Made by a program: the position numbers and the translations under genes. From positions 1 to 27,119 of IMG/VR virus record IMGVR_UViG_3300018080_000512: a DNA stretch of 27,119 bases, one strand, 5' to 3'. This DNA comes from a virus. Positions 4,215 to 27,119 of the stretch are shown one piece after another; positions within the stretch are counted from its first letter, which is position 1, and each line of letters begins with the position of its first letter. Below the pieces are notes generated by a model. That model was given only the letters and a program-made list of their open reading frames with translations, was not told the origin of the DNA and ran no database searches.

Positions 4215-4222
4215 CTCGCCTC

Positions 4223-7487: not shown

Positions 7488-7858
7488 CAGCCCACCAGCG
7501 TTGTCACGATTCGATTGTACTCCGGGGTCCGCAGACCCCGACCCGCAATCAGCTCGGTAAACGGATCATAGATCAGGTTCTGGGAAAGCACCACCCAGCT
7601 CACCAGATCGGTATTCAGGTAGATCGAACGACACACCAGATCGGACCGACGCTCCTCGGACTGCTTCACCTGATACACCTTGTCCGTTCCGCGTTGAGCG
7701 ATCTCGGGACGCCGCCACGACTCCACGGTCTGGTCATCGTTATACTCGACGACCTCCAAGTCCTTGAATCGGCTCAGGCTGTTGAGCCGAAACAGACGTG
7801 TCCCGGTCCTCCGAAACCGGAGCTCGGGAAACTGATAGTTGATCGGCAGCGCGTTCAA
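7487..7858 (-). CDS. Baseplate protein, T4 gp53 / LysM-like (tail X-like), TTG start
   Basis: The 123-aa product contains DKVYQVKQSEERRSDLVC, SIYLNTDLVSWVVLSQNLI and DPFTEL, then GRGLRTPE. This resembles the gp53/LysM-type modules that hold hub and wedges together. The frame has no ATG at its beginning. A TTG at 7858 overlaps the upstream stop as TTGA and has GGAGAG about five bases before it, so a TTG start is chosen. The gene stands between a tube/hub-initiator-like gene and the hub gene, as the small LysM-like genes of contractile tails do. The first 45 residues are less typical, so the exact T4 equivalence is inferred. Confidence 0.68.
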   Translation of the reverse strand: MNALPINYQFPELRFRRTGTRLFRLNSLSRFKDLEVVEYNDDQTVESWRRPEIAQRGTDKVYQVKQSEERRSDLVCRSIYLNTDLVSWVVLSQNLIYDPFTELIAGRGLRTPEYNRIVTTLVG

Positions 7859-11240: not shown

Positions 11241-11434
11241 GTCTGACCGTGTTCCGCTTTCAGCTTCTCGACAAGTTTATCGTAGAAGTGCCGGTACTCC
11301 AGCACCTTGAATAGTTTGAATCGAAACGGGTCTATGCCGCCAAAGAGCCACATGTTGACCCGGACCTGCTCGATGTCTGCAATCGAATACAGCTTCCCAC
11401 CGAATAGCGACAGCAGGTCAGGGTCGCCGGGGTC
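11237..11434 (-). CDS. C-terminal extension of the tail-assembly chaperone, reached by frameshift (65 aa)
   Basis: This frame runs from the slippery site to a TGA that overlaps the tape measure start. It reads DPGDPDLLSLFGGKLYSIAD and on to VEKLKAEHGQT, with a helical pattern (RFKLFKVLEYRHFYDKLVE). Its only in-frame ATG after the overlap is at 11356, and the codons upstream of the slip are merely the shadow of the chaperone gene. The simplest reading is that ribosomes reach it by a +1 (or -2) slip at 11436-11441, giving a fusion of about 320 aa. Position just before the tape measure gene is exactly that of the G/GT type chaperone pair in lambda-like tails. It could instead be translated alone from an unusual start, but no suitable site is visible. 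Confidence 0.65.
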   Translation of the reverse strand, partial: DPGDPDLLSLFGGKLYSIADIEQVRVNMWLFGGIDPFRFKLFKVLEYRHFYDKLVEKLKAEHGQT

Positions 11435-12200
11435 GAAAAAACTCGTCCATATCGAATTGGAAGTCGATCTTGTTTTCCCATCCGCACTCGTCGCACTCGC
11501 GTTCCAAGTCCAGATCGATACCGACCGCGTGCTCCTCCATGCTCTGGCGCAGCGCGTAGCCGTTGCCGCCATGGCTCAACGCCTTCTTGACAAACGCATC
11601 GGCCTCGACCGGTTCGAGCTCCTCACCGTTCACAGTAACGAGGCTCGCCTTGATCCGATGCCGGTAGGCCGGGTCACCCTTGTACGGGATACCCTTCTTC
11701 TTGAGCTCCGCAGCATTCTCGATCGCAGCCTGTTCGTCGTAGCCACGGAGATGCCGCCAGCCCACCTTGTAGTTCCCGTGGGGCAGCGTCACATAGCGGA
11801 CCTCTTCCCACTCCGGCAGTTCGCCGGTTTCCGGATCGGACTTCGGCCCCAGAATCCGAAACTGGGAGATTGGGATCGTCGTCGTGTTGCGAGTGTCGCA
11901 ACGCCGACACGCCCAATCAAAGGTCCAGCCTTCGCCGAGCGTGATCCGTCGAATCTGCATGAAGAGGTAGAGCCGATCGCCGGTCAGAAACTGATCCGGG
12001 GCTACCGGGCAGTTCTTGACACAGTTGGCAATGAGAGTGGAGATGATTTCGCGCCGGGCCTTCGAGCCAGCCTTCTGGAGGAGCTCTTCTTCCTCGACAC
12101 CGAAGGGATCGACACTGACGATCCCACCCGGCAGCTGGTCGCCATAGGGCAGCCCGAGAGAGGGGAGGGTTACTTGTTGGGTGTAGATGGTTTCCGACAT
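11418..12200 (-). CDS. Tail-assembly chaperone, T4 gp26 (baseplate hub assembly)-like, with two CxxC pairs
   Basis: The 260-aa protein begins MSETIYTQQVTLPSLGLPYG, the entry pattern of the T4 gp26-like family. GGIVSVDPFGVEEEELL and FLTGDRLYLFMQIRRITLGE match the family's next conserved parts. Two cysteine pairs, CRRC at 98-101 and CDEC at 236-239, suggest one zinc site bringing distant segments together. It lies between tube and tape measure, the slot of the tail-tube/tape-measure chaperone. Its last codons contain the frameshift site, so two products are expected: 260 aa and about 320 aa. The ATG at 12200 has AGGAG about seven bases upstream. Family membership is recalled from pattern; the chaperone role is inferred from gene order and frameshift. 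Confidence 0.72.
   Translation of the reverse strand: MSETIYTQQVTLPSLGLPYGDQLPGGIVSVDPFGVEEEELLQKAGSKARREIISTLIANCVKNCPVAPDQFLTGDRLYLFMQIRRITLGEGWTFDWACRRCDTRNTTTIPISQFRILGPKSDPETGELPEWEEVRYVTLPHGNYKVGWRHLRGYDEQAAIENAAELKKKGIPYKGDPAYRHRIKASLVTVNGEELEPVEADAFVKKALSHGGNGYALRQSMEEHAVGIDLDLERECDECGWENKIDFQFDMDEFFRPRRP
11435..11441 (-). other. Candidate programmed +1/-2 frameshift site (TTT TTT C GA)
   Basis: In the chaperone frame the mRNA reads GAG TTT TTT CGA CCC, and the stop follows five codons later. Skipping the C at 11435 lets the Phe tRNA re-pair on TTC and continues as GAC CCC GGC in the extension frame. A -2 slip on the T run gives the same frame with one extra Phe. CGA is often slowly decoded, which would favour a +1 slip. 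No stem-loop or upstream stimulator was proven. Confidence 0.6.
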
Positions 12201-12241
12201 TGGATTCTCCTAGACAGATGGATTGAGGCGGATAGCCGGAA

Positions 12242-12263
12242 AGGGGTGGGACGAACCACCCCT
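12242..12263 (-). terminator. GC-rich hairpin after the tail tube gene
   Basis: An 8-bp perfect stem (AGGGGTGG / CCACCCCT) encloses a six-base loop read TTCGTC on the transcript. TTTCC overlaps and follows its 3' edge, so it is only weakly terminator-like. It lies 37 bases beyond the tail tube stop in a 99-base gap. It may be a leaky terminator or an RNA 3'-end stabiliser for the abundant tube message. The remainder of the gap holds only the ribosome site of the chaperone gene. Confidence 0.55.
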
Positions 12264-12299
12264 CTAAAGACGATGTCAAACAGGATCAGGTGTTTGGGA

Positions 12300-12833
12300 T
12301 TACGCTCCGCCGCCGACGAGGTAGGCCCGGTCGCACCGGAGCGTGAACTCGATCATCAGGTTCTCGACGGTCGTGTAGGACAGCTCACCCCACGACTGGG
12401 CCTGCGGCCAGCAGCCCTCACAGAGCCACTCGCGTTCCAGCGTGCCGTCCGGCGCGAACAGCACCATCTTCACATCCTTCTTGTAGATGCGAGGCAGGTT
12501 GACGAGTCCGGTACGCGGATCGCCCACCTGATTGTACCATGCGAACGCGGCGTTGCGGCTCTGGGCATCCACGAAGTCCCTGATCCGCATCGCGAAGTTC
12601 TCGAAGCGAAGCGCACCGGCCATGAACACCTGCATGTTCACAAAGTCGATCGTGACTTCCTCGAAGCTGGACGAGGGGATACCACCGCCTTCGACGGCGA
12701 GGTAGAGCTCGCGGCCCTGCGTCAGCGTCGGGATGTCCGCGACCTGAATGTAAAAGTTGTTGGTCAGCTGCGGCGTCCACGTATTGGCACCGCCTCCCGC
12801 CGCGATATAATCGGGAGCGAGTTTATCGGCCAT
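12300..12833 (-). CDS. Tail tube protein, T4 gp19-like
   Basis: The 177-aa product has the length and pattern of contractile-tail tube proteins. NNFYIQVADIP opens the core barrel. GGIPSSSFEEVTIDF and a conserved Phe/Asn-rich loop follow. DVKMVLFAPDGTLEREW then CEGCWPQAQSW marks the conserved region of the gp19 family near residues 125-150. It would stack as hexameric rings inside the sheath. It starts at 12833 after GGAGG, with a 49-base gap from the sheath gene. The sheath-tube order is the universal one for contractile tails. Confidence 0.88.
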   Translation of the reverse strand: MADKLAPDYIAAGGGANTWTPQLTNNFYIQVADIPTLTQGRELYLAVEGGGIPSSSFEEVTIDFVNMQVFMAGALRFENFAMRIRDFVDAQSRNAAFAWYNQVGDPRTGLVNLPRIYKKDVKMVLFAPDGTLEREWLCEGCWPQAQSWGELSYTTVENLMIEFTLRCDRAYLVGGGA

Positions 12834-12882
12834 GATTTAACCTCCGATCCTGTCGTTTATAGACCTGTTACACCAACACCGA

Positions 12883-14400
12883 TTAAGCGGCGTTCAGCAA
12901 TTCGTTGAAGTCCGCGCCCTGCGACGTGATGACGAACTCCAGTTCGATCACCTCGGCGACCTTGGTGAACTTCAGGTAGATGCGTCCGCGCATCTCGTTG
13001 CGTTCCTGCACGATCTCGGTATTGAGGGTCTCGTCCATCACGAGCAGGAAGTCGATCAGACCACGTTGCGCCCGGATGTCGCGTAACGGGGGTTCCGCGA
13101 CCGACAGCCATTGCCGCCATGTGAACGAGTCCGAGAACTCGAACACGAAGGACTCGGTCACCGTCGCCAGAGTCGTCTTGATCTGGTTGAGCGAACGCCG
13201 CACATTGAGGCGGTCGAGCGCCGTGGTCTCGCGTTGCAGGGTCTTCTGTCCCTGAATGAAGATACCCTGACCCAGCTTGTTGACAATCGGGTTGACGCTG
13301 TTGCCGGGTCCATACATCAAATCGCGCTCCGCCTGATTCGGCGTAGTCACCGAACGCAGACTGTTGACCGCTCCACGCGGGTCACCGGCGGGGGCGTACC
13401 ACGGGTACGCGGCCCGGTCGGTCCGACCGAACGCGGCAGCGGCGAAGCAGGACGGCGCGAGGATCACTTCTTGATTGTTGAACTCGTCGAACACGACCTG
13501 CTCGGGCCAGTACAGCGCCGCATAGCTGCTGTTGAGCGCGGGCGAACCCGGACTCGGCTCATTGTGCCAGTCGACCACACCGGTCGCGGTAAGCCCGGTC
13601 GGCGGATCGACAATGGCAACCGCATCCTTCCGGGTCTCGGCGGTCGTGATGAGCTGATTGACCACCACGGTATCGCTGAAGCCGGGGGCGAGGATCGTGT
13701 CCACGAAGACCTGCTCGCGGTCATCGAACTCCTGAATCCCGGCGATCACCTTGCTCGCGATATTGCTACCGCTGAACCCGTTGCCCTCGACGATGCCGCC
13801 GCCGAGATCGACCATCTCGAAGCCCACCGCGTCCTGCGTCGGGTCCGGCTCACCGGCCACACCCAAGACTTCCGCCGTGATCCGCTCGCTACCGGTGTCG
13901 GGATCGTTGACGGTGTCCTCGACATTGGCACGGGTCAGGTTGTCCCATGTCTCCAGCAGCTCGGGGTTCCGGGTGCTGAACGTGTCATACAGATCGATCT
14001 TGAACCCGCTGGTCGAACCGGCGCTCACCCTGATCTCGTAGTCGGTCGAGTAGGTGCCATACTCGGACGCCTCGAATTTCACGCTGTCCGCCGCGAGCGC
14101 GTCGACCAGCGTGGCAAAGCCTTTGCCCAGCGGATCGTCGCCCATATCGCTGCCGACACGGACCACCCAGAGCGTGTTGAGCTCGCGGAGAATCTGCCGA
14201 GCCGCGTAGAATCCCTGACTGTTGGGATCGGCACGTCCGAAGGTCTCGGTGAAAGTGTTTTCGTCACCCACCAAGGTCCGCGTGTTCAACGGCCCCTTGG
14301 TCGCCGTGATGACGATGCCCACGCTCGTCGGAGCGGCTTGCGGCGCGTACAGACTCCGATCGATTTCTTTAATGTAGGTTCCGGGGCTGACAGGACTCAT
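12883..14400 (-). CDS. Tail sheath protein, T4 gp18-like
   Basis: The 505-aa protein begins SPVSPGTYIKEID, the common sheath N-terminus. At about residues 28-110 it has GIVITATKGPLNTRTLVGDE and LWVVRVGSDMGDDPL. The C-terminal domain is highly typical: LGQGIFIQGQKTLQRE, LDRLNVRRSLNQI and FTWRQWLSVAEPPLRDI, ending in FVITSQGADFNELL. Subunits polymerise around the tube and contract to drive it through the envelope. The ATG at 14400 follows AAGGAGAG. The gene is somewhat shorter than T4 gp18, as expected if an outer insertion is reduced. Confidence 0.93.
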   Translation of the reverse strand: MSPVSPGTYIKEIDRSLYAPQAAPTSVGIVITATKGPLNTRTLVGDENTFTETFGRADPNSQGFYAARQILRELNTLWVVRVGSDMGDDPLGKGFATLVDALAADSVKFEASEYGTYSTDYEIRVSAGSTSGFKIDLYDTFSTRNPELLETWDNLTRANVEDTVNDPDTGSERITAEVLGVAGEPDPTQDAVGFEMVDLGGGIVEGNGFSGSNIASKVIAGIQEFDDREQVFVDTILAPGFSDTVVVNQLITTAETRKDAVAIVDPPTGLTATGVVDWHNEPSPGSPALNSSYAALYWPEQVVFDEFNNQEVILAPSCFAAAAFGRTDRAAYPWYAPAGDPRGAVNSLRSVTTPNQAERDLMYGPGNSVNPIVNKLGQGIFIQGQKTLQRETTALDRLNVRRSLNQIKTTLATVTESFVFEFSDSFTWRQWLSVAEPPLRDIRAQRGLIDFLLVMDETLNTEIVQERNEMRGRIYLKFTKVAEVIELEFVITSQGADFNELLNAA

Positions 14401-14414
14401 GCTGCTCTCCTTCG

Positions 14415-15350
14415 TTAATTCGAGATACCAGTATCGGCGTTGCGCCCAGCCGTAACAAGCTGGTTGTAGCCCGTCGTGTCAGACGGGAACACCGCGTAGT
14501 AGTAGGTTCCGGGGGCGATTACATCCGAGATGCTGTTGGCGGCACCGGGGATCGGCGACGGGTCGGTCAGCACTTCGTCTCCGTCGGTCTCGTCGGTCGG
14601 GTACGACCCAACCTTCCGGCGCACCTTGATAGCGGTCAGCCCGCTCTCGTCAGGATTGGTCCAAGTCAAATCGACTTGGCCGTCCTCCGTATCGGTGGCA
14701 ATGAAGTCCAGAACCTGTGAAGGCGAGTTCGGAACCGCTGTCACCGCGTTCTCACCCGGAGTCACGTCCGTAGTCCAGTTCATCCCCAGATCGCGGGCCG
14801 TGATCCAGTAGTAATATGTCGTCTCATCGATCAACCCGACATCCTCGATGGCGAGGCCGATGCCGGGACTGTTCTCTTTCACCACGGCCACCAGCTCGGC
14901 GTCTTCGTCGTCGCGTCCCGTTGGATAGCCACCCTCCTTGCGGTAGATTTCCAAACGCTCCAGATCGTCGTCGCCCGGATTGGTCCAGCGCAGGATCGTC
15001 TTCTGGGACTGGCCGCTCTGGCCGGTCAGGTTCGTGACCCGTTGCGGAGGATCGGTATTGGGGATAACGCGAAGCTCGTTGGGCACGCGCCGCGCCAGAT
15101 CGGGCGTGATCTCAAACGGCGAGATAACGATCGTACCGGGCAAGTCTACATCTTCCGTCGGGACCAGCTGACCGCGAAATCCAACGGTTTCGTTGCCAAC
15201 GGTTACGTAGATACCCTGATCCGTCTTGTTGTAGATTTCACGGACCTCCTCCGGCGTCAGGATACCGGGGCTGTACGCGGGGAACCCATAGGGCAAGGTC
15301 ACCCCGATTTCCCCGACTCCGATCTGGGGATAGCCGTAGTTGAAGAACAT
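14415..15350 (-). CDS. Virion protein with two tandem fibronectin-III-like domains (311 aa)
   Basis: An unrecognised N-terminal part (1-95) is followed by two similar domains, about 100-187 and 208-300. Each has the Fn3 signature of a Pro-rich entry, a central LRWTNPGDDDLERLEIYRK or LTWTNPDESGLTAIKVRRK strand pair, a YPT turn followed by Asp/Glu, and a TTYYYWITARD or GTYYYAVFPSD strand. The shared motif shows an internal duplication. Fn3 and Ig-like domains decorate phage tails and heads, where they may bind cell surfaces weakly. Placement just before the sheath gene suggests a tail-associated or sheath-decorating role, which is inference. The ATG at 15350 follows GAGGAG, which overlaps the stop of the 76-aa gene. 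Confidence 0.78.
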   Translation of the reverse strand: MFFNYGYPQIGVGEIGVTLPYGFPAYSPGILTPEEVREIYNKTDQGIYVTVGNETVGFRGQLVPTEDVDLPGTIVISPFEITPDLARRVPNELRVIPNTDPPQRVTNLTGQSGQSQKTILRWTNPGDDDLERLEIYRKEGGYPTGRDDEDAELVAVVKENSPGIGLAIEDVGLIDETTYYYWITARDLGMNWTTDVTPGENAVTAVPNSPSQVLDFIATDTEDGQVDLTWTNPDESGLTAIKVRRKVGSYPTDETDGDEVLTDPSPIPGAANSISDVIAPGTYYYAVFPSDTTGYNQLVTAGRNADTGISN

Positions 15351-15353
15351 GGC

Positions 15354-15584
15354 TTACTCCTCGTTGTCCGGGATCGCGGGTCGCGGGGCGTTCTGCTCCC
15401 TGATCTCCGTGATCCGGATGAAATCCCGGCGTGCCAGTGTTTCGAGATGTTCGGACATCTCGGCCTCGTCGATCTCAATCGAACCCTTGCTCGGGAGGAA
15501 CTTCGCCTGCTGGCCCGGACGATCCAGTGCCTTCAGGTTGATGTAGATTCCCGTCTTCTTGCGGTTCGTTACCTTGATCTTCAT
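15354..15584 (-). CDS. Small hypothetical protein (76 aa) upstream of the Fn3 gene
   Basis: The product opens with a basic strand segment MKIKVTNRKKTGIYINLKAL, then has a short Gly/Ser loop, an acidic patch (SIEIDEAEMSEHLETLA) and a disordered Pro-rich end. It may fold as a small beta domain with one helix. AGGAGG lies seven bases before the ATG at 15584 and overlaps the stop of the gp15-like gene, so expression is well supported. I do not recognise the family; position among neck and tail genes is the only hint of role. EIREQ near its end is regarded as a chance match to the processing-type motif seen in the head proteins. Confidence 0.68.
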   Translation of the reverse strand: MKIKVTNRKKTGIYINLKALDRPGQQAKFLPSKGSIEIDEAEMSEHLETLARRDFIRITEIREQNAPRPAIPDNEE

Positions 15585-15593
15585 GCAGACCTC

Positions 15594-16271
15594 CTAGTTA
15601 GACCGTGGGATCGAGTCGATGCACAGCAAGTCGCCGTCCCAATCGTAGTAGTCCAGACGGATGCTCAAAATCTGATACGCCTTCTCGTAAAACAGTTCGT
15701 CGAGTATCAGATACTTCGCGTCGAACAGCGGGAAGAGATTTGCTTTCACCGTCAACGGATAGGTGTAACGGATCGTGCGCAGCTCGCCGCCCGGTTCGAG
15801 TTCCGAGGTATTGGTTCCGGTCTCGGAGTACACCTCGATCCACTTATAGCCCCACCAGCTGCCCACGTTGGCCCGCAGGTAGCGCGGCGGCAGGTTCCAC
15901 AGATACATCGCGATGCGACGCCGGTAGTAATTCATCTGCCACTGGTGCTGGGTCCAGATGTCGATCTGGTAGTCGATCTCGATCGGTGTCGGGTACTGGG
16001 AACGGTAGAACTCACCGTCCACCTGTATCCCGGAGACCCGCGCCGCCGATTGCCGCTCCTGATCCATCCGGTCATCGCCACGGCTCAGGATGATCCGAGG
16101 CAACGCGAGGTTCTCGTTCTCAATCGTCTTCCCCGACAGGTAGTCGAGGTAGCGCCGCTGCGGTGTCGCGAAGAGCACCTGCGGCGTAAAGTTCGGTACG
16201 GCATCGGAGATCGCACAGGCGATCATATCGAGCATACACGAATCGTAGAGTCGCAGCGTTTCGACAAGCAT
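15594..16271 (-). CDS. Tail terminator / sheath stabiliser, T4 gp15-like (225 aa)
   Basis: The frame extends upstream to 16379, but the first 36 codons there overlap the previous gene in another frame. The ATG at 16271, which overlaps the upstream stop as TGATG, gives a natural 225-aa product starting MLVETLRLYDS. It shares the layout I recall for T4 gp15: RRYLDYLSGK near the start, NLALPRIILSRGDD, then YPTPIEIDYQIDIWTQHQWQ and a late IRYTYPLTVKANLF strand pair. gp15 caps the tube and sheath and attaches the tail to the head neck. Position between neck and sheath genes agrees. Confidence 0.75.
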   Translation of the reverse strand: MLVETLRLYDSCMLDMIACAISDAVPNFTPQVLFATPQRRYLDYLSGKTIENENLALPRIILSRGDDRMDQERQSAARVSGIQVDGEFYRSQYPTPIEIDYQIDIWTQHQWQMNYYRRRIAMYLWNLPPRYLRANVGSWWGYKWIEVYSETGTNTSELEPGGELRTIRYTYPLTVKANLFPLFDAKYLILDELFYEKAYQILSIRLDYYDWDGDLLCIDSIPRSN

Positions 16272-16837
16272 CAGAGTACCTTCAGGATGCGCTCGATGAG
16301 CCGCCGGATCAGCCCCTTCTTTTTCTGGGGTACGAAGATCGGGGTCACCCGCTTGAGTTGCTCGTTGATGACACGCCACACATTGTTGACGTAGACCTTC
16401 TTCACCTTCCGGTTCAACAGGTACTCGCCACGTACAATGTTTTCCAGCTCACGTGCCGCTCGGCTCCGGAACAGCGGTTTCTTTTTCTGGATCGACTCGA
16501 CCGCCTCCGCCATCTGCTCAGGGGTCAGCTCCTCGGTCCCCTTGGGGCGCACCCCGAACGCGAGGTAGTCGCCCTGCCGCCAATGAGTCACCGGACCGAT
16601 CTCGGTCAGCGATGTCAGCTTCGGGGGCGGCTCCTGCTTCTCGATGGCTTTCGCCTCGGCGATCCGCTGTTCCCTGATCCGCTTATTGACTTCCTTCTCG
16701 ACCGCCTTGGCAAAGCTCTCGCCCATGCTGCGACCGGCGCGGAGATTGGCCCGCTCCATCACATTGGGAAAGTTGGCGGCGCTTACCTCTTCAGGCGGTC
16801 CCTTGACGACGAGTCCGATCTTGATCGTCGGGGCCAC
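16271..16837 (-). CDS. Hypothetical tail/neck protein (188 aa), GTG start
   Basis: This basic, helical protein begins after a GTG at 16837 that directly abuts the TAA of the previous gene; no better start is present and coupling is likely. It has a short strand start (TIKIGLVVKGPP), charged helices (SFAKAVEKEVNKRIREQRI) and a strongly basic C-terminus (VPQKKKGLIRRLIERILKVL). I do not recognise it. Its place just before the gp15-like gene hints at a neck or tail-completion role, perhaps like the HK97-gp10 group, but no signature supports that. Its IREQ tetrapeptide lies within a long helix and is not preceded by the multi-Arg linker. Confidence 0.62.
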   Translation of the reverse strand: MAPTIKIGLVVKGPPEEVSAANFPNVMERANLRAGRSMGESFAKAVEKEVNKRIREQRIAEAKAIEKQEPPPKLTSLTEIGPVTHWRQGDYLAFGVRPKGTEELTPEQMAEAVESIQKKKPLFRSRAARELENIVRGEYLLNRKVKKVYVNNVWRVINEQLKRVTPIFVPQKKKGLIRRLIERILKVL

Positions 16838-18058
16838 TTACATCCCCCACGGGAGTCCCTCGGATTCGTAGCTTCCCTCGTATTCCCCAGCCATCGACTT
16901 GAGCACCTTCTGGCGACGCTCATCGACGATTCCGGAGACCCGGACGGTCCACTCCCGCTCACCGGGCAGACCGCTAATCTGGGGCCAGCTCACGACAAGT
17001 CCGGCGAGCGTGTTGCGCACCGCCTCGTAGTATCCGTTTGCCAGCCATGCCTCGTTGAACGTGAAGTTCATCGTGATCTCGTTGTCATTGCTCACGTTCA
17101 TCGGGTCGGCACCGGCATCCGGGATAGGGCCGAAGGCATCCTCTTTGATCCGACGACGGCGCGGACGGCGACGCTCGAACAAATCACCCTCGCTAACCAT
17201 CTCGAAACTGAAACCGTAATTCGTATCCACGACACTCCATTGTGCTCCAGACGGATTATGTACGATCCACAACTGCCCATGCTCGAACACAGCATCAAAC
17301 TCATTTGGAGCCAGAGCATCTCGTCCCCGAGGCAAGCTGTCATACTCTGAGCTAGACAGGAACTCACCCAATGCTTCGTCTGCATTGTTCGGGTCTTCCG
17401 ATGCTAATGCTTCTTTGATCCGACGACGGGGACGGCGGCGCTCGGTCTGACCGGACACCATCTGGTCCAACTTCTTCAGGTCAGCGTCGATACTGTCGGC
17501 CCGTTTGAACAAGCCGGAGATGAAGCTCTTGGCCTTCTGGAACCAACCCTTGAGGGTATCGCCAACGCTCTCGCCGACGCCGCGTGCCTTGATGTCCTTC
17601 TTCGAGAATTTCGCATGGGTTGGGAACTTCTTGGCGGTGGCGGTTTTCTCCGCCTCCATCATCTCATCCATCAGCTTGGCGACATCAGCCATCTGCTCCT
17701 GCATCTTCTCGGTCAACTTATTCCACAGCTGGGCGTAGCGCGGATAGGATTGGGTCCGAACCTTCATCTTCCGCTGAATCTCATCGAAGTATGCAGTCTG
17801 ATCTTCGAGCCGCTCGATGATCTCGACGATGCCCACCTCTTCCGCAATCGCTTCGGCGTCTCCCTTGAGCTGTTCGGCCTGCGCCCGCAACTCGGACTCC
17901 TTGGTCTTGAGCTCCATCCACTGAAGCATGGCGGCACGTTGGTTCTTGCCCGCACCGCTCCCGGCGAACGGGTTAGCCTCGGCCTCCTTCTCGACGACGA
18001 GAGCCACCGGTTTCCGGCTCGCCTCGCGAATCATCTTGTCTGCGATAGGGGTGCGCAT
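16838..18058 (-). CDS. Coiled-coil structural protein with a module bracketed by Arg-rich linkers (406 aa)
   Basis: Residues about 40-140 form a long coiled coil (ELKTKESELRAQAEQLKGDA and onward). A basic amphipathic stretch follows (LKGWFQKAKSFISGLFKRAD, 169-188). ERRRPRRRIKE (206-216) and ERRRPRRRRIKE (295-306) then bracket a 90-residue acidic module (EFDAVFEHGQLWIVHNPSGA and onward). The C-terminal 100 residues form a separate domain with NFTFNEAWLANGYYEAVRNT. Both linkers end in Ile-Lys-Glu, like a gp21-type cleavage site. The linkers are shared with the 1022-aa head protein and nothing else in the window. GGAGG precedes the ATG at 18058. The function is unknown; a head-internal or neck role is inferred from the shared linkers. 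Confidence 0.72.
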   Translation of the reverse strand: MRTPIADKMIREASRKPVALVVEKEAEANPFAGSGAGKNQRAAMLQWMELKTKESELRAQAEQLKGDAEAIAEEVGIVEIIERLEDQTAYFDEIQRKMKVRTQSYPRYAQLWNKLTEKMQEQMADVAKLMDEMMEAEKTATAKKFPTHAKFSKKDIKARGVGESVGDTLKGWFQKAKSFISGLFKRADSIDADLKKLDQMVSGQTERRRPRRRIKEALASEDPNNADEALGEFLSSSEYDSLPRGRDALAPNEFDAVFEHGQLWIVHNPSGAQWSVVDTNYGFSFEMVSEGDLFERRRPRRRRIKEDAFGPIPDAGADPMNVSNDNEITMNFTFNEAWLANGYYEAVRNTLAGLVVSWPQISGLPGEREWTVRVSGIVDERRQKVLKSMAGEYEGSYESEGLPWGM

Positions 18059-19777: not shown

Positions 19778-21244
19778 TTAGGGCTGGAGGGTGCGGTCGA
19801 TCTTCGCGGTCGTGTAGAACCGGGAGTCGATGTCCTTCAGGGCGTACCGCGTCGCGATAGCCTTTTTCATCAGGAACTCCGCGTTCGGCGAATGGACGGT
19901 CGGGGTCGTGTAGAACGGCACGTAGGGCGCGAACACGAAACCGGTGTCGAACATCTGGGTGCCGTTGTACCCGATCAGGATTTCGTCATCCGGACCGTAG
20001 GTATCGACGTAGATGTCCCAACGGTTGTTGAGGCGTCCTACCTTCCACACACCGCGTCCCTCGATCTTCTGGAGCGTACCCTCGAAACCGGGGAGCGATT
20101 CCAGAATGTTCGCCACGTCGATGCCGACGACGGCCCAATGCCCGCGACCACGCTGCGTGGCCTTCAGGATGTCATTGGACGACGGGATCATCACGTAGTC
20201 GAGCAGGGTCAGCTTGTGCTCCGGGAAGCCCACGCCACTGGGAGGCTTGCCGGGCCAGACGCGCTGACCACCGGCAACGCCGGGGGCCGCAACCGTGGTG
20301 GCACGGGCGATGGTGCGCAGACGCTCGATGATGCGCCGGTCGATCTCGAACTTCAGCTCCTGCCCGAGGGCACCGATGAGCTGGGTTTCGAGGTCTTCAC
20401 CGTAGACCACCTGCAAGTCGTGGCTCGCCTCGACGGTCCACTGGGCACGCAGCTTGCTCTCGCGAGGCTCGACCTGCGTGGACTCGATGGTGAGTTCCAT
20501 CTCCGGCAGGTTGTCGTTGCCTTCCATGCGGTACACGTAGTTGGCCGTGGGCTGGGCAACCGCCGCAACCGCGAAGTCGAAATCGACCGCGCCGGTCCGG
20601 TAGTCGATGGTGTTGGTTCCACCACCGTCCACGTCGCCCACGATGTTCCCGTTCCCGTCATCGGTCACGACCTGTGTGCCGTCGGTGGCACGGAACGTGC
20701 CGGGGCGCACCGGGAAGAACATCAGGGTCGCGGTCTGGTTCTGCACACCGCTCGCCCCGATCACCTCGCCAGTCACATCCTCGGAGGTGTAACCGAAGTT
20801 CGGGTTCTCGATCACATCCTGACCGGCGATCGCGGTGCCCTTGGTCTGGCCGTAGACGAACTTCATAAAGAAGACCAGTCCGGTCGGACCCTGCATCGGC
20901 TGAACGCTGACCAGCTCGTGGGCGATCAGGTTCGGCCAGACCGCACGCACCAGCGGGAAGGCGTACTTCTGGAACTTCCCAAAGTTGATGGCGCGGACCG
21001 ACTCGTCGATGCTCTGGATGTGGTTGTACAGGTTCTCGCACATAATCATCGTGCAAGCCGTCACCTGATCCGGACGCCGCTCCAGCCCCTCGAAGAGGTC
21101 GGCATAGCGAATGCGGATTTTGCGGCCACGGTTGTCACGGCCCTCCCACAGGCAAAAGTCCTTGTAGGGAGCTTTGCGAGCGAGGTTGACGCCGTGTTCC
21201 AGCAACTTCTCTTGATGCTGCTGGGCGTTCTGGAGGTTTTTCAT
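19778..21244 (-). CDS. Major capsid protein, T4 gp23-like (488 aa)
   Basis: The HK97-fold signature of the gp23 family is clear at about residues 97-127: FPLVRAVWPNLIAHELVSVQ followed by PMQGPTGLVFFMKFVYG. The middle part (250-300) has a long helix rich in acidic residues (AQWTVEASHDLQVVYGEDLE). The C-terminus has typical subunit parts (ILIGYNGTQMFDTGFVFAPY). In T4 the N-terminus is removed by gp21 at a hydrophobic-x-Glu site. Here LFE at 50-52 is a candidate, because the conserved core starts at a distance like T4's. The gene follows the protease-scaffold gene as in T4. AGGAGAGGGAA precedes the ATG at 21244. The 50-base gap upstream holds only that ribosome site. Confidence 0.92.
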   Translation of the reverse strand: MKNLQNAQQHQEKLLEHGVNLARKAPYKDFCLWEGRDNRGRKIRIRYADLFEGLERRPDQVTACTMIMCENLYNHIQSIDESVRAINFGKFQKYAFPLVRAVWPNLIAHELVSVQPMQGPTGLVFFMKFVYGQTKGTAIAGQDVIENPNFGYTSEDVTGEVIGASGVQNQTATLMFFPVRPGTFRATDGTQVVTDDGNGNIVGDVDGGGTNTIDYRTGAVDFDFAVAAVAQPTANYVYRMEGNDNLPEMELTIESTQVEPRESKLRAQWTVEASHDLQVVYGEDLETQLIGALGQELKFEIDRRIIERLRTIARATTVAAPGVAGGQRVWPGKPPSGVGFPEHKLTLLDYVMIPSSNDILKATQRGRGHWAVVGIDVANILESLPGFEGTLQKIEGRGVWKVGRLNNRWDIYVDTYGPDDEILIGYNGTQMFDTGFVFAPYVPFYTTPTVHSPNAEFLMKKAIATRYALKDIDSRFYTTAKIDRTLQP

Positions 21245-21294: not shown

Positions 21295-22251
21295 TTACAG
21301 ACTCTTCTCGACGCCGGTGCGCACCGTCTCCAACAGCGAGTTGGTCGCATCGGTCTTCTGGGTGGCCGGGGACGGCTGACGACGCTCGTCGAGCGACTTC
21401 ACCTTGCTTCCCTTCATCGGCTCGCGGGTCGAGGTCGGCGGTTTGCGCCGCTCGTTCGTCTTCCGGCTCCGGGCCACATCGAGTACGGAGTCGAGGCGCT
21501 GCTTGGCCTCGTTCAGGCTGGCCGGTTTGCCGACCGCCTTCAGGATGCGCTTCTGGTCCTGCGGGTTCAGGTTGCCGATCCGCTCGTGGACGTAACGCTT
21601 CCATTCCGAGCTGCCGTGCTCCGCCATCAGCTTCTTAACCGCCGTCCGGGCCTTCTCGTACTTCTTCTTGGTCACGGTGTTGTGAGCCATATACTCGATA
21701 ATCCGTTTGGCGACCTTGAGCTCGCGGGCCTGCTTCTCGATCACGCGCTTCGCGGCGATCAGCTGGCGACGCTCGTTGGCCGAACCGTAGCCGGGCCGTT
21801 TGTTCTTCATCTTCTTCTTGTCCTTCGCGGCACACGCTTTCCCCTTCTCACGGAGCATGGCGCGCCGACGGCGCTCCAAGTACCGCCTGCGGGACACGCG
21901 GCGACGTTCGGGCATCTCTTCCTCCTCACCGGGGCTTTCGTTCGGGATGATGGTGATGATCCCATCGACTTCGAGTTCCGTGGGTTCGTCCACGACCTCG
22001 GCATCGAGTCCGAAATCTTCCTCGTCATCCTGTTCGCGGATGCGCTGGTTCCGCTTCTTGAGTTGTTCGAGACGGGCCTTCATGCGGCGGTTGGTCTCTT
22101 TCAAGTCAGCGTTTTCCTTGCGCAGGCGACGCACACGTTGCGCGCTCTCACGGATGCGTTCCGTGGCCTTCTTGTCCGCGAGAGCCTCGGCGAGCTCAAC
22201 CGTCTGGCCGATCGGGGTCCGGACGGGACGTTTCACGCCTTTGCGATTCAT
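21295..22251 (-). CDS. Candidate separate scaffold protein from an internal start in the protease gene (318 aa)
   Basis: Codon 240 of the protease gene is an ATG at 22251 preceded by a perfect AAGGAG with six-base spacing (AGCGCC). This in-frame start would give a 318-aa product beginning MNRKGVKRPVRTPIG, just before the coiled coil. It contains all of the scaffold-like region and none of the protease. Lambda makes scaffold Nu3 in the same way from inside the C protease gene, so such nested scaffold genes are established. The ribosome site is visible; the use of it is inferred. Confidence 0.6.
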   Translation of the reverse strand: MNRKGVKRPVRTPIGQTVELAEALADKKATERIRESAQRVRRLRKENADLKETNRRMKARLEQLKKRNQRIREQDDEEDFGLDAEVVDEPTELEVDGIITIIPNESPGEEEEMPERRRVSRRRYLERRRRAMLREKGKACAAKDKKKMKNKRPGYGSANERRQLIAAKRVIEKQARELKVAKRIIEYMAHNTVTKKKYEKARTAVKKLMAEHGSSEWKRYVHERIGNLNPQDQKRILKAVGKPASLNEAKQRLDSVLDVARSRKTNERRKPPTSTREPMKGSKVKSLDERRQPSPATQKTDATNSLLETVRTGVEKSL

Positions 22252-22968
22252 GGCGCTCTCCTTGCGGGTGTTCTTCATGCTTTCATTGATATGCCGAAGC
22301 ACGTCGCGTTTTTCCTCCGCAAACAGCTTCGTCTGAAGGTCAGCCACGATTCCTTTTACCGTCCGCAACTCGCGGTACTCGGTTTCAGATTCGCAGAGCT
22401 GAGCCGCTGTCTGGAGCACGATTTTGTTGTTGCGCTCCGTTTCAACCGATTCGATCCGCGTCGGGTACGCACCCCGTGTACTCGGGTTGGTCACCAAGTC
22501 CCACGTCTCCAACTCAAAGTCGTCTTCGTTGACATAGGATTCGCCGCCGCGTTCGATCACGCTGCCGGTGCCTCGGGAACTGATCCCAATCTTTACACCA
22601 GCGGCAACGAGACTCTCCACGATCCGCCCGGCGGGCGTGTCGAGAATCTCGATTTCCACATAGATTTCGTTGCCTTCCCGCTCGACCTGCGTGACCACAT
22701 GACTGACGCGGGGGATCGAGGTCTTACCGTCCTCGGGGTGATCGGCCTCGCCCAACATCTCGCGGGTCTTGAGACGCCCTTGGAACTTCTCGTCCATGAA
22801 GATGCGATCCCAGAGCGATCCCGAGTAGATGCGCTCGTTGGCATTGCGCTCGTCGGCCCGCTGCCCTAAGCCGCGCATCTTCATCAAGACACCCTCGCGG
22901 AGATTCTGCTTGTTCCGCTCGGTAACCTTGAACTCGAAGATTCTGGTTTCGATTAGCTTCTGGCGCAT
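21295..22968 (-). CDS. Prohead protease (T4 gp21-like) fused to scaffold-like coiled coil (557 aa)
   Basis: Residues 1-180 form a T4 gp21-type prohead protease. GRLKTREMLGEADHPED contains the presumed catalytic His77. AAGVKIGISSRGTGSV (122-137) contains the presumed nucleophile Ser130 or Ser131. DFELETWDLVTNPSTRGA completes the family signature. The remaining 380 residues are charged and include a coiled coil at about 262-311, an acidic patch, an Arg-rich ERRRVSRRR region (354-361) and a long basic helical end. Possible self-processing sites are IRE at 310-312 and LRE at 372-374. In T4, protease and scaffold are separate genes (21 and 22). The start is two bases after the upstream stop. The protease call is confident; scaffold function is inferred from composition and order. 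Confidence 0.88.
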   Translation of the reverse strand: MRQKLIETRIFEFKVTERNKQNLREGVLMKMRGLGQRADERNANERIYSGSLWDRIFMDEKFQGRLKTREMLGEADHPEDGKTSIPRVSHVVTQVEREGNEIYVEIEILDTPAGRIVESLVAAGVKIGISSRGTGSVIERGGESYVNEDDFELETWDLVTNPSTRGAYPTRIESVETERNNKIVLQTAAQLCESETEYRELRTVKGIVADLQTKLFAEEKRDVLRHINESMKNTRKESAMNRKGVKRPVRTPIGQTVELAEALADKKATERIRESAQRVRRLRKENADLKETNRRMKARLEQLKKRNQRIREQDDEEDFGLDAEVVDEPTELEVDGIITIIPNESPGEEEEMPERRRVSRRRYLERRRRAMLREKGKACAAKDKKKMKNKRPGYGSANERRQLIAAKRVIEKQARELKVAKRIIEYMAHNTVTKKKYEKARTAVKKLMAEHGSSEWKRYVHERIGNLNPQDQKRILKAVGKPASLNEAKQRLDSVLDVARSRKTNERRKPPTSTREPMKGSKVKSLDERRQPSPATQKTDATNSLLETVRTGVEKSL

Positions 22969-22970
22969 AG

Positions 22971-23378
22971 CTAGGTTCCCTGTGATGTGATCTCGCCTGT
23001 GTCGAGGTTTATCATTAGTTTCCGGTAGGTGCAGAGGCGATCTACCAGATGTTCGACCCGGATACTGGTCAGGTCGGAACGTGGGGTACGGAATCGTGGA
23101 CTATCCAGAATCGGGTGGAGCCGCTGCTTCAGCTGGAACATGTCCAGCTCGGTAACCTTCCCGCTCTGTCCCCAACCGAACAGGCCGGGAAAACGATCCA
23201 CGACGACTTCGCGGGGCGTGGTCTGTACGCTGTACTCCGGCTTCGCGATCAGCTTCAGGAAGATGAGTTGCGACGCATCATATTGACGGGGTTTGCGGGC
23301 GAGTATTGAATCGAGCCAACGCTCTAATCTGCCCGCGATTCCCGGCGTCAATTTTCTGATGTCGCGCTGCTTTGTCAT
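22971..23378 (-). CDS. Hypothetical protein (135 aa) upstream of the prohead protease
   Basis: The product starts with a basic amphipathic helix (MTKQRDIRKLTPGIAGRLER) and continues with ILARKPRQYDASQLIFLKLI, TPREVVVDRFPGLFGWG and a C-terminal strand pair ending LMINLDTGEI. I do not recognise it. Its first 101 bases overlap the end of the 87-aa gene in another frame, and the site before the ATG at 23378 is weak (AAGAGC). The start might therefore lie further in, but no clear alternative is seen. Position between the acidic multi-domain protein and the protease suggests a prohead core role like T4 gp67/gp68, which is inference from position only. Confidence 0.62.
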   Translation of the reverse strand: MTKQRDIRKLTPGIAGRLERWLDSILARKPRQYDASQLIFLKLIAKPEYSVQTTPREVVVDRFPGLFGWGQSGKVTELDMFQLKQRLHPILDSPRFRTPRSDLTSIRVEHLVDRLCTYRKLMINLDTGEITSQGT

Positions 23379-23541
23379 AACTGCTCTTGTGGGTCTGGTG
23401 AGCCTTCTTCGCGGCCCGGCTCCGTTTCGGATCGGGCGGGGAGTTCTTGTCTACGGCACTCTGCCGCTGAATCTCGGCGACCACTGCGGAAGCAGACCGC
23501 CCCCGTAGTACCTCGCGGATCATGTAGTCAGCGGTGTGCAT
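23278..23541 (-). CDS. Small basic protein (87 aa) between polyprotein and protease genes
   Basis: The ATG at 23541 overlaps the stop of the 1022-aa gene as TAATG. A longer frame up to 23625 would only overlap that gene in another frame. The protein starts with an amphipathic helix (HTADYMIREVLRGRSASAVV) and then turns strongly basic and disordered (SRAAKKAHQTHKSSYDKAAR). It resembles small T4 prohead core components in size only. Its last 34 codons overlap the next gene, and one of the two frames may have evolved over the other. Function unknown. Confidence 0.58.
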   Translation of the reverse strand: MHTADYMIREVLRGRSASAVVAEIQRQSAVDKNSPPDPKRSRAAKKAHQTHKSSYDKAARHQKIDAGNRGQIRALARFNTRPQTPSI

Positions 23542-26500
23542 TAGTACCAGTTGTCCCAAAACTCTTCGGGCACGTCTTCGCGAACAAGGAAGACATCGCC
23601 GCTGGGGCCGGAGATGGCATTCCACTCCATTCCCGATCCATCAATAATCTTGATGTTGTCGATGACCTCAACCCATGTGTCCCAGTACCACTCGCTGGCA
23701 TCTTCGGTTGAGAACACGCCTTCATCCGGTCCGGCCAACAGAATGTCCAAGGTCTCTTGTCCGAACTGGTTGAAGATTTCGTCACTGAAGTATTCGGCGA
23801 AGCGTTGCGGGACATAGATTCCGGCTGAACCGTCAACCACCAAATCTACGTATTGATCGAAGTCCTCGTCCTGTTCGCGGACCTGCTTGCGGCGCTTCGC
23901 CTTCAGGGCTTCCATCCGATGCTTCCGGGCCGCACGGCGCTTGCGCTCCGTCAGGCCGCTCAGCAGGTCGTCCGGCGTGTCGTCCCGGATCAGGTAGATA
24001 CCTTCGTGCGACGGCCAGATCGTCCATGTATGGCCTGCCTCGTCTTCTTCCGAGTAATTGTCGACCACTTCGTCCCATGCCCAGTCGTAATCTTCCCCCT
24101 CGTCCGGACCGGCCAGCAAGGTCTGCAAGGTATCCTGATCGCAGCACGCCGCAATCTCGTCACTGAATTTCTGGGCGAAGCGTTGGGGCATGTAGATGCC
24201 GTACTGTCCATCGACGACGTACATGCTGTACTCTTCCTCGTCCTGTTCGCGGACCTGCTTGCGGCGCTTCGCCTTCAGGGCTTCCATCCGGCGCTTCCGG
24301 GCCGCACGGCGCTTGCGCTCCAGTGCCGGGCCGCTCAGCTGCTGGTCCGGCGCGGGGATCACCCCGTCCTTGCCGGGCTTCTTGGCCACACCGCTCTCGT
24401 CCGGAGCCTTGGCCTTCGGATCGTCTCCGAGCTTCTTGTCGGACGCGGGGAGCACCCCGTCCTTGCCGGGAAACTTCACCTCGCCGCTGTCGTCTGTGGC
24501 CGGGGCCAGCGCGGTATCGCCGAGCTCCTGATCCCGAGGCGCGATGATATTGTTCATCATGGCCGAGGGGATCGTGCCTTCCTCGTCGGGAACGCTGCCG
24601 AGCGGATCGTCGCCGATATTGCTCTGGTCGTTCTTGATGATGCCCAGCTTGTCGGGCAGGTTCGGGTTCACCTCGTCCTCGTCATCGTCCACCGGATCGA
24701 GATCGGGGGCGGTGATCTCGGCATCCTCGCCATCGATCACGCCGCCACCCATCGTGTCGTCCGAGACCGATACGCTCACGGTTCCCTCTTCATCGGGCAC
24801 CGAACTCAGAGCTTCGTCGCCGATGTCGATCACATCGTCGATCATCGACATGAAGGTGTTAGTGTTCATGCCGAGCGGGTACTCGGGAGCCTCGGGCACC
24901 GGGGTATCGTCGAGGTACTCCTGCTCCCGCATCGCCTTGCGACGGCGCGCCCGGAGCTGCTCCAGCTTGGAGAGCTTGCGACGACGTTCATAGGTCGGAT
25001 AGGACAAGTCGTCCCGATCAAACCACGCATTGACGTATTGCTGTGCCTCCTTGTCGGAGATTTTCAACCCCCGTGCCAAATGAGACGCCATCGCTGTTGC
25101 GAGATCGGTTTTGCTCTTCACATCCGCAACGTCCTGAGAGATATCATCGAGAAACGCAAACGCCTCTTTGCGACGATCACCCGCCTCGCTCACCCGGCGA
25201 CGCGGACGGCGACGCTCCCCCATCCCTCGGGACTGGTCGATGGTGATGCTGTCACCCTCGAACGGGATGGTCTCGCCGTTGGCCATCTTGACATACCACT
25301 GCCCGGCCTTCTGGATCACGTTGTAGCCCAAGCCATACTCGTTGGACGCTTGGTTCATCCGGGTCTTCGTGGTCGCCGATTTCCAGCCGCCGGTGTTCAG
25401 CTCGATCTTGGTATCGTCGAACACGACCACCGGGGTGCCCCGGTAGGTCACGATGGTCTCGCCACCACGCTGGACCACATCGGTCTTGACGCCACGCACC
25501 CGCTGTTGCTGGGCCAGCTCGCTGACCCGGCGGCGCGGACGGCCAGAACGCCGCGTCCGGGGTCCGCAGCCCTCGATGTAGCGGTCCACGGCCTCATCCG
25601 TGTCCGAGAAACCGTTCCCGCCCTTGGACGGCTTAAAACCGCCCTCAGCGCCCTTGGCGTCCTCCTCGCCGGGATCGAAAATCGCCAGCGGGTCGGCACC
25701 CAGCTCGTGGTCATCGTAGGAGGACTGGAGAAACTCGCCGGTATCGGTGCCCAGCGGGAACTCCTCGGCCTGATCCACGTTGTAGGAATCGGACATCGCC
25801 TCCTCGGCCTCATCCTCTTCCTTGAACATCGGACCGTCGTAGTCGTACTCGTATTCGTAATCCTCGTCCTCCATGTCCTCGTCGGACATGTCGAAGGAAT
25901 CCTCGGAGTCGTCTTCCTCTTCCTCGTCCTCATCCTGTTCGCGGATCGAGCGGCGGCGTTCCACCGGCTCCTCGTCGGCGAACTCGACGAAGTTCCCATC
26001 GTCGTCGACCACGACATCGCGCCAGTTCTCGGCGAGCTCGCCGTCCAACGTGGTGTAGGAGTCCTCCTGATCCGCCATCTCGATCAGATCGTTGGGGACG
26101 CCGACCGTGCCGTCGTCGAACCGATTGCTGACCTCGCCGTTGCGGTACGCCACGATCCCGATGGGTTCGCCGCTGTCGGCCTCAGCTACCTGAGCGATGA
26201 ACTCATCGTAGGCGTTCAGCCCGGACTTGTCCTTCTCTTCGAGCTCGGCATCCGTGAAGACCCAGCGTTCCACCTTCCCGTTGTCGGCCTGCTCGGTCAC
26301 CATGTAATTGGAGATCGGGTGGGTCAGCAGTACGGTGTAGTGGTAGGGCCACATCGGCTTGATCTCGCTGCGCGCCACATCCTGATTCGGGTAGCCGACG
26401 AGATCGCTGGCCGGGACCGACTGCTCGACACCGGCTCCGTCGAGAACCATGATCGCAGTCAGCGAGCTGCCGCCCGCCTTCGAGATGCGCACGGGGAAGT

Positions 26501-26609
26501 AGCTCAGGTTCTCCCCGTACTTGTCACCGCGCATCAGCGCGAAATCGCCGGGGCCGACCTGTACGGACTGTCCCGATTTCGTCTTGATCGTTGCTTCATT
26601 AAGCACCAT
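23541..26609 (-). CDS. Large acidic multi-domain protein with Arg-rich hxE linkers; candidate head polyprotein (1022 aa)
   Basis: An upstream frame exists to 26759, but AGGAG before the ATG at 26609 fixes the start (MVLNEATIKTKSG). Domains in order: a beta-rich N-terminal domain (1-215); a very acidic region (225-275) and FPLGTDTGEF module; a beta module (365-464) with KAGQWYVKMANGETIPFEGD; a helical module (476-545); acidic tandem repeats (595-758); and two copies of a globular domain (about 796-880 and 918-1022), each with GIY(M/V)PQRFA and FSDEI. The modules are joined by basic tracts ending in IRE224, VSE364, VSE475, MRE562, VRE788 and VRE912. These match the hydrophobic-x-Glu preference of gp21-type proteases. 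The protease is encoded three genes later. Role as cleaved internal head protein is inference. Confidence 0.78.
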   Translation of the reverse strand: MVLNEATIKTKSGQSVQVGPGDFALMRGDKYGENLSYFPVRISKAGGSSLTAIMVLDGAGVEQSVPASDLVGYPNQDVARSEIKPMWPYHYTVLLTHPISNYMVTEQADNGKVERWVFTDAELEEKDKSGLNAYDEFIAQVAEADSGEPIGIVAYRNGEVSNRFDDGTVGVPNDLIEMADQEDSYTTLDGELAENWRDVVVDDDGNFVEFADEEPVERRRSIREQDEDEEEEDDSEDSFDMSDEDMEDEDYEYEYDYDGPMFKEEDEAEEAMSDSYNVDQAEEFPLGTDTGEFLQSSYDDHELGADPLAIFDPGEEDAKGAEGGFKPSKGGNGFSDTDEAVDRYIEGCGPRTRRSGRPRRRVSELAQQQRVRGVKTDVVQRGGETIVTYRGTPVVVFDDTKIELNTGGWKSATTKTRMNQASNEYGLGYNVIQKAGQWYVKMANGETIPFEGDSITIDQSRGMGERRRPRRRVSEAGDRRKEAFAFLDDISQDVADVKSKTDLATAMASHLARGLKISDKEAQQYVNAWFDRDDLSYPTYERRRKLSKLEQLRARRRKAMREQEYLDDTPVPEAPEYPLGMNTNTFMSMIDDVIDIGDEALSSVPDEEGTVSVSVSDDTMGGGVIDGEDAEITAPDLDPVDDDEDEVNPNLPDKLGIIKNDQSNIGDDPLGSVPDEEGTIPSAMMNNIIAPRDQELGDTALAPATDDSGEVKFPGKDGVLPASDKKLGDDPKAKAPDESGVAKKPGKDGVIPAPDQQLSGPALERKRRAARKRRMEALKAKRRKQVREQDEEEYSMYVVDGQYGIYMPQRFAQKFSDEIAACCDQDTLQTLLAGPDEGEDYDWAWDEVVDNYSEEDEAGHTWTIWPSHEGIYLIRDDTPDDLLSGLTERKRRAARKHRMEALKAKRRKQVREQDEDFDQYVDLVVDGSAGIYVPQRFAEYFSDEIFNQFGQETLDILLAGPDEGVFSTEDASEWYWDTWVEVIDNIKIIDGSGMEWNAISGPSGDVFLVREDVPEEFWDNWY
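23863..23949 (-). repeat. 87-bp direct repeat, copy B (with 24235-24321)
   Basis: This stretch matches 24235-24321 at 85 of 87 positions by eye; the spacing is 372 bases (124 codons), so the reading frame is kept. It encodes the Arg/Lys-rich linker ERKRRAARKHRMEALKAKRR before VREQDED. The DNA match is far closer than the match of the domains that follow, which suggests recent copying or selection on the linker. Confidence 0.85.
24235..24321 (-). repeat. 87-bp direct repeat, copy A (with 23863-23949)
   Basis: This is the upstream copy in the direction of transcription. It encodes ERKRRAARKRRMEALKAKRR before VREQDEE. It differs from the other copy at two adjacent bases (His to Arg). Confidence 0.85.
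24336..24827 (-). repeat. Degenerate acidic tandem repeats within the polyprotein (residues 595-758)
   Basis: At least four units share the pattern (I/L)GDxxLxxxPDExG, the last two also having PGKDGV(L/I)PA(S/P)D. Examples are IGDEALSSVPDEEGT, IGDDPLGSVPDEEGT and LGDDPKAKAPDESG. The repeats are acidic and probably disordered. They sit between two basic linkers. Confidence 0.75.
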
Positions 26610-26637: not shown

Positions 26638-27119
26638 TTAAATACCCTCGAAAGCGTTGGCTTCGTATTCCGCCTCGAAGCTGTCGCGCAGCTGCCGCGC
26701 CACCTCCATGCGGGTGTTCTTATTGAATACCGAATCGACTCGTTCGCCCGCCGTGCCATGCTCCCGGATATACTTCCGTGCGCCCTCGTTCGCGAGGTAC
26801 ATGAACAGCTTGACGGCCAGCTCGGAGTCGTAAGTTCCTTTTTCCTTTTTCCGCTTCAGGTTCTTGATCTGCGGAACATACATCTGCCGGTACAGATCGG
26901 CATCGTTCTCGATGTAAAGCAGGAGCTCGCGTGCCGCCTGCTCATCGGCGGGTCCGCTCGCCGCCTCATTGACCGCATGGATCGAGGCTTGCCAGTAACC
27001 GTCCCATCCGAGCTTCTCGCGCTCCAGCACCAGCTGGAGGATGCGCTCGGCGGCTTCCCTGACACACCGCTTCTCCAGCTTCGGGGCGACCATGCGCACC
27101 AGCTTGATCGGCACATCCA
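26638..27119 (-). CDS. Unrecognised helical protein, 5' end beyond window (at least 160 codons)
   Basis: The frame is open to the right edge, where the last readable codons are GAT GTG CCG, so the start may lie outside the window. A GTG at 27114 or an ATG at 27093 are possible internal starts. The protein is helical and charged: CVREAAERILQLVLEREKLG, then LYRQMYVPQIKNLKRKKEKG, then DSELAVKLFMYLANEGARKY and a final helix VARQLRDSFEAEYEANAFEG. I associate this helical pattern with small uncharacterised phage proteins but know no function. It ends 28 bases before the polyprotein start, the gap holding only that gene's ribosome site. Confidence 0.65.
   Translation of the reverse strand, partial: DVPIKLVRMVAPKLEKRCVREAAERILQLVLEREKLGWDGYWQASIHAVNEAASGPADEQAARELLLYIENDADLYRQMYVPQIKNLKRKKEKGTYDSELAVKLFMYLANEGARKYIREHGTAGERVDSVFNKNTRMEVARQLRDSFEAEYEANAFEGI

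Follow-up and report, generated by a model that had tools for sequence, protein, structure and literature searches.

A candidate head-cargo polyprotein with gp21-type cleavage motifs in a T4-related viral genome fragment

In this study we analysed IMG/VR record IMGVR_UViG_3300018080_000512, a virus record of 27,119 bases that the window (the whole stretch of DNA analysed) covers in full, and which is itself probably a genome fragment. Its minus strand holds a T4-type head and tail module with a gp23 capsid protein, an S77 prohead protease and tail-side genes, and upstream of the protease gene lies an open reading frame (ORF) for a protein of 1022 residues (23541-26609, minus strand). On the evidence of its sequence and that of its relatives, we propose that this protein serves a T4-related myovirus as a head-cargo polyprotein, which the S77 protease would cut and whose pieces would be loaded in the head; we put the probability of this reading at about 0.6. 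We infer that the pieces are cut apart, are present in the virion and are injected.

Six junctions at which a hydrophobic-x-Glu (hxE) motif suggests cleavage divide the chain: IRE224/Q, VSE364/L, VSE475/A, MRE562/Q, VRE788/Q and VRE912/Q, the slash marking the predicted cut. A preliminary description of this DNA, made from the letters alone, had given the same junctions, coordinates and start, and all of them stand: translation begins at the ATG at 26609 and ends at a stop codon at 23541-23543. The ORF listing puts the start further upstream, at 26759 (1072 residues); the start at 26609 was preferred because an AGGAG sequence lies about 7 nt upstream of it and because the homolog in a related contig, L003 (L003:5071-7359), starts there (MIISEVTIKTK).

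The predicted pieces, all on the minus strand, differ markedly in character. Piece 1 (residues 1-224; 25938-26609) is a conserved N-terminal domain ending in ERRRSIRE/Q. Its first 110 or so residues are conserved in L003 (50%) and in a further sequence, L006 (39%); nothing worth naming was found for it among phages, PHROGs and PDB sequences, and it may be the part that docks the chain in the core. Piece 2 (residues 225-364; 25518-25937) is acidic, lacks predicted structure and runs into a basic linker ending in VSE364. Piece 3 (residues 365-475; 25185-25517) contains a Kyano_Gp96 module (PF23790, phrog_554), matched over residues 366-450 in Pfam (3.9e-10) and in PHROG (2e-15), followed by a basic tail ending in VSE475. 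A helical module with a weak match to phrog_10981 and a basic tail ending in MRE562 makes up piece 4 (residues 476-562; 24924-25184). Piece 5 (residues 563-788; 24246-24923) is acidic, with about four repeats of about 31 residues ([LI]GDxxL..PDEEG) at residues 596, 665, 696 and 727 (polyprotein 596-757, about 24339-24824), and then forms a basic helix ending in VRE788; a segment related to these repeats also occurs at residue 303. Pieces 6 (residues 789-912; 23874-24245) and 7 (residues 913-1022; 23544-23873) are the first and second copies of a phrog_21544-type module, the former with a basic tail ending in VRE912 and the latter matching the PHROG at 2.3e-5. Both copies match phrog_21544 and they are paralogs (44% identity, E 7e-24), in agreement with the earlier remark that some modules are duplicated. 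Kyano_Gp96 was the sole Pfam match above cut-off in the polyprotein, with no known effector or metallopeptidase domain. The chain joins several disparate domains (Gp96-type, phrog_21544-type and unassigned modules) and is acidic overall, with 227 D/E and 114 K/R.

To assess the motif, hxE was scored as [ILVMF]xE and a basic tract as at least 5 K/R in 8 residues. The triplets are common in this Glu-rich protein, which has 104 Glu and 20 [ILVMF]xE triplets, and the signal therefore lies in their pairing with basic tracts, not in the triplet alone. Five of the eight basic tracts of the polyprotein end in hxE (within 4 residues). When the tracts were held fixed and the remaining residues were shuffled, the mean was 0.5-0.7, and five or more were reached in at most 5e-5 of 20,000 shuffles. 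The tract at IRE224 (ERRRSIRE) is weaker and outside the five counted; it makes a sixth, weaker case. Among the 24 proteins of the window, hxE-ended basic tracts occur in the polyprotein (5), the protein of 16838-18058 (2), the protease ORF (2) and the protein of 16271-16837 (1), with none in the others, and the 14 tail-side ORFs from 1644 to 16379 have no basic tracts. In the window, hxE-ended basic tracts are confined to head-region proteins.

Relatives were reached through searches with the capsid protein and the protease. A search of viral contigs with the whole polyprotein gave no confirmed relative, two protease scans of genome contigs gave no match, and scanning with the N-terminal domain, or with the protein of 16838-18058, added only known relatives or same-sample ones. 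When viral contigs were scanned for linker DNA of the ERRRPRRR-hxE type, the single match lay in an apparently unrelated frame and was therefore judged to be due to chance.

The 40-kb contig L003, whose capsid protein is 77% identical to that of the window, encodes a polyprotein homolog of 763 residues (49% identical). At 364 its motif is MQE in place of VSE, followed by LAQ in both proteins; at 475 it is VRE in place of VSE, followed by AGD in both, with a synonymous change of the Glu codon from GAG to GAA; and near 224 it is LIE (LRRSLKLIE) in place of IRE. An hxE motif is thus present at every alignable junction of the homolog, though other motif residues differ. L003 lacks the module at 476-562, which in the window lies between two junctions, as well as everything after about residue 788. 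This is close to the pattern of conserved linkers with variable modules that the preliminary description had proposed to look for among related phages; the opposite pattern, relatives that keep the modules and lose hxE, was looked for and not seen at alignable junctions.

Neighbouring head proteins show similar behaviour. In the protein of 16838-18058, IKE216 is replaced by IRE in L003, VVE23 is retained as VVE, and L003 lacks the piece that IKE216 and IKE306 enclose. In the protease tail, IRE312/QDDEEDF becomes VSE/Q in L003 and in another sequence, L002. The internal edges of long gaps in the comparison with L003 fall within 0-3 residues of hxE in 5/5 cases (475, 562, 788, 216 and 306). Beyond these, the L003 homolog (L003:3465-5057, 530 residues) of the gene upstream of the polyprotein carries the junctions RRRRIKE/QGE and SRRDPVTE/AIG. 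The 788 and 912 linkers of the polyprotein are identical at 85 of 96 nt, and with linker DNA repeated in this way, homologous linkers could guide cassette exchange. Judged from these alignments, cassettes come and go at linkers in the polyprotein and in neighbouring head proteins alike.

Modules of the polyprotein are found elsewhere as proteins of their own. Relatives of Gp96 were located at at least 487 viral loci, and nearly all of the best 80 of these are free-standing, about 75-195 residues long as called, with many of the longer lengths stemming from upstream start choices. Their neighbours are small hypothetical genes in all four cyanophage records examined. The second family, phrog_21544, has a length of 110 residues; tblastn placed weak matches to it in phages GAP32 and Serratia BF, in regions of small genes. 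Free-standing Gp96 homologs start with MAQTSVVRG or MAQTQVFRG (L040 and L052), and the predicted cuts in the polyprotein (VSE364/LAQQQRVRG) and in L003 (MQE/LAQTQRVRG) both align with these starts; cleavage at 364 would thus restore the native start, with Leu (CTG) replacing Met. In L002, a Gp96-type module is inserted, between VVE/LAQTR and TVE/FVQHQ, in the small leader-bearing protein that in the window directly follows the polyprotein; the uninterrupted form of this protein is found at L123:8067. With this insertion, the same domain is seen on its own, within the polyprotein and following a leader.

Leaders of the T4 capsid-targeting type, ending in VVE, are carried by proteins encoded near the polyprotein. 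A leader pattern, drawn up from seen examples so that the count is descriptive, gave 12 matches in 179,000 residues of six-frame ORFs from the window, L002 and the records of three relatives, versus 1 in 20 whole-set shuffles. All 12 fall in head/protease clusters.

A gp21-type protease had been said to be encoded nearby, and we could assign it to the S77 ORF at 21295-22968 (minus strand) in the same window, which matches PF03420 (9.9e-14), phrog_207 (1.2e-37) and, by profile, 5jbl (3.1e-18) and ends in a long charged coiled tail. In the mechanism that we propose, the N-terminal domain of the polyprotein, perhaps with the acidic repeats, would place the chain in the prohead core. The S77 protease would cut after hxE at about six junctions to yield about seven pieces, as the motif suggests, together with its conservation and the protease encoded nearby. 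Since the cut would fall after the Glu, each basic tract would stay as a C-terminal tail of the preceding piece, and such tails could hold the pieces on the packaged DNA. The Gp96-type piece and both phrog_21544-type pieces, at the least, would probably be injected along with the DNA as small host-takeover or anti-defence proteins; this is the step of which we are least certain. As a wider proposal, some T4-type phages may deliver their injected set as a polyprotein whose linkers serve as both cut sites and recombination joints, making the arsenal swappable by cassette. We advance it tentatively, at slightly less than even odds.

Several observations weigh against the head-cargo polyprotein. 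Fourteen more hxE triplets lie elsewhere in the chain, and at 788 the L003 protein ends in KEVE and a stop codon, not in hxE. A leader of the kind that the neighbours carry is absent from the N-terminus, MVLNEATIKTKSGQ. The collections searched yielded a single full-length relative, and the phage is not known to us from any isolate. None of the modules could be tied to a known function or clearly to a fold in the PDB, and a PDB sequence search with the polyprotein gave weak, chance-like matches only. Structure prediction, which had been suggested for each module, succeeded in part. The Gp96-type module was modelled as beta-hairpins plus one helix (pLDDT 82); searches with this model gave no Foldseek match below 0.001 and, among solved structures, nothing above Z 5.2 in VIA-align, and we therefore claim no function for it. 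The full-length model is poor (pLDDT 40.5), so that no fold claims were drawn from it; helices or strands appear in the module regions, and none at residues 225-376 and 568-759. Finally, the 788 and 912 linkers show no synonymous differences, and their likeness therefore points to recent duplication or recombination and not to selection. Linker homology alone could put gap edges at hxE sites, a caveat that touches the gap-edge evidence and not the finding that hxE is kept in both the window and L003.

The main alternative is that the protein belongs to the prohead core or scaffold, as T4 gp22, gp67 and gp68 do, and is cut up to clear the core from the head ahead of packaging, its pieces being waste. 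In T4, gp22 and gp67 are cleaved into several fragments, which for the most part leave the head (PMC9026906), and the polyprotein resembles such proteins in its overall acidity, in its long acidic stretches that lack structure and bear repeats, and in the position of its gene, a short way upstream of those for the protease and the capsid protein. The stretches at residues 225-350 and 563-760, acidic, predicted to be unstructured and in part made up of the repeats of about 31 residues, suit a core or scaffold role better than cargo. The original idea of a string of cargo or core modules is supported in part, by the module layout, the junctions kept as hxE, the cassettes, the two free-standing families, the S77 protease and the leaders of neighbouring proteins; these two stretches do not resemble cargo. 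For the chain as a whole, we consider a core protein unlikely: three modules of two families occur on their own in other phages, where the records examined place them among small hypothetical genes; one module lies behind a capsid-targeting-type leader in L002; close relatives differ by gain and loss of modules, unlike an essential scaffold; and a scaffold-like tail is already present on the protease ORF.

The protein might instead be injected whole, as an uncut multidomain protein of the polyvalent type, its basic tracts serving as flexible DNA-binding linkers and recombination joints and its hxE motifs being incidental or inherited along with the cassette. Polyvalent multidomain phage proteins are known, and some are transferred whole (PMC5512222); the existence of two linker copies as similar DNA cassettes would also fit. 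However, the linkers differ between the window and L003 while hxE persists, the cut at 364 coincides with the native start of free-standing homologs, and the same junction type occurs in the protease tail, where self-processing is expected; we regard delivery of an uncut chain as decidedly improbable. That the junctions arise by chance from an Arg- and Glu-rich composition, in favour of which the many Glu residues and hxE triplets might speak, is largely refuted and very improbable indeed, given the shuffle test (P at most 5e-5), the restriction of hxE tracts to head-region proteins, and the persistence of hxE in relatives and its coincidence with module boundaries.

The gp23-type major capsid protein is encoded at 19778-21244 (minus strand; PF07068, 1.1e-61). 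The protease ORF, of 557 residues, has its S77 domain followed by the charged coiled tail with an hxE site of its own, IRE312, and is like a protease-scaffold fusion. A second multi-piece protein (16838-18058, minus strand) has a leader ending in VVE23 and junctions at IKE216 and IKE306; with it and the protease tail, the motif first noted in the polyprotein extends beyond that protein. Its counterparts by position, downstream of the capsid gene, in SP-15 (L133:13809-14825) and LIS04 (L134:12660-13685) carry RRRRFKE/SMDML and RKRRIKE/SFDML, respectively, about three quarters along the protein, and may represent the same junction type in isolates. As these counterparts showed no sequence homology to the protein in the window, they were not used as evidence. 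At 23278-23541 (minus strand), an 87-residue basic protein with a capsid-targeting-type leader, MHTADYMIREVLRGRSASAVVAE, has an ATG that overlaps the TAA of the polyprotein. On the other side, the 3' part of an upstream gene (26638-27114, minus strand) runs off the window; a domain with the pattern DLYRQM...GTYD...A..YLANEGARKY is common to this gene, L003:3465-5057 and L006:5566-6540, and in L006 it follows a leader. About 35 kb separate portal and protease in G002, so T4-like portal synteny is not confirmed. Long plus-strand ORFs in the window (280-1068, 11307-12908 and others) mirror minus-strand genes in a record of 59% G+C, and look spurious.

The leader-bearing set of L006 and L036 includes a 2'-5' RNA ligase-type domain (PF13563, 7.9e-11; Acb1 at 0.00034, below cut-off). 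In a 324-residue ORF (L006:5566-6540, L036:6063-7037) this domain is joined to a part that starts with the leader MTIANELIERVVRGETPEAVVE, and from its sequence the ORF is a possible anti-defence cargo. A (F/Y)(F/Y)HGTS-like motif is common to L036:1043-2089 and 2080-3141 and to L006:435-1592 and 6465-7268, most of them with a leader. One of these proteins is weakly like Tpt1/KptA (0.022, below cut-off), and the group is possibly ADP-ribosyltransferase-like; T4 Alt is an injected ADP-ribosyltransferase. In a 317-residue protein of L003 (946-1899), the leader-type motif is at the C-terminal end (MIQQVLKGAKVERVVE/AARK) and not at the N-terminus; T4 Alt is reportedly cut at both ends.

If a cargo polyprotein is indeed made and cut as we propose, phages with T4-type heads would share with many RNA viruses a polyprotein strategy, by which the products of one gene are loaded into the head as several proteins in a fixed ratio. 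It would also provide a rule for finding injected proteins, namely a basic tract plus hxE, and a short VVE-ending leader near prohead proteases. The leader rule may point to anti-defence cargo, given that in relatives one leader-bearing protein matches 2'-5' RNA ligase/Acb1-like phosphoesterases over its N-terminal half. It would also become testable whether Kyano_Gp96 and other widespread orphan families act when infection begins.

In the literature surveyed, which does not cover most subscription papers and is weak evidence of novelty, no head polyprotein cut into retained modules is described, and the proteins cut at several sites are core proteins, or the sites lie in propeptides (T4, phiKZ, SPN3US). 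Polyvalent proteins, including P1 DarA and DdrB, are alike in having many domains on one virion-delivered chain, and an analogy to polyproteins has been drawn (PMC5512222), but their processing is ascribed to built-in metallopeptidase domains or left open, and none of their domains was found in the polyprotein. The ejection proteins of phiKZ and SPN3US, cut by gp175 and gp245, are similar in having several x-x-Glu cut sites per head protein (PMC10052503), but the extra sites lie in removed propeptides, and no string of separate modules has been described for them in the literature surveyed. T4 gp22, gp67 and gp68 share with the polyprotein a location near protease and capsid genes, an acidic character and, as far as the cleavage motif goes, several hxE sites per protein; no core-protein match to the polyprotein was found in Pfam or PHROG, such proteins being short and fast-diverging, and the polyprotein differs in having modules that are free-standing elsewhere and a module content that varies between relatives. 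The closest comparison is with the T4 internal proteins. T4 gp21 cuts after L/I-x-E (PMC9026906), and the internal proteins are targeted by a short leader and later ejected (PMC9026906, PMC3012670). IPI-IPIII and Alt, which gp21 processes, resemble the system described here in protease family, hxE motif, head location and the VVE leaders of neighbouring proteins. They are, however, separate proteins, each with its own leader, whereas here several modules share one chain, joined by basic linkers and without such a leader.

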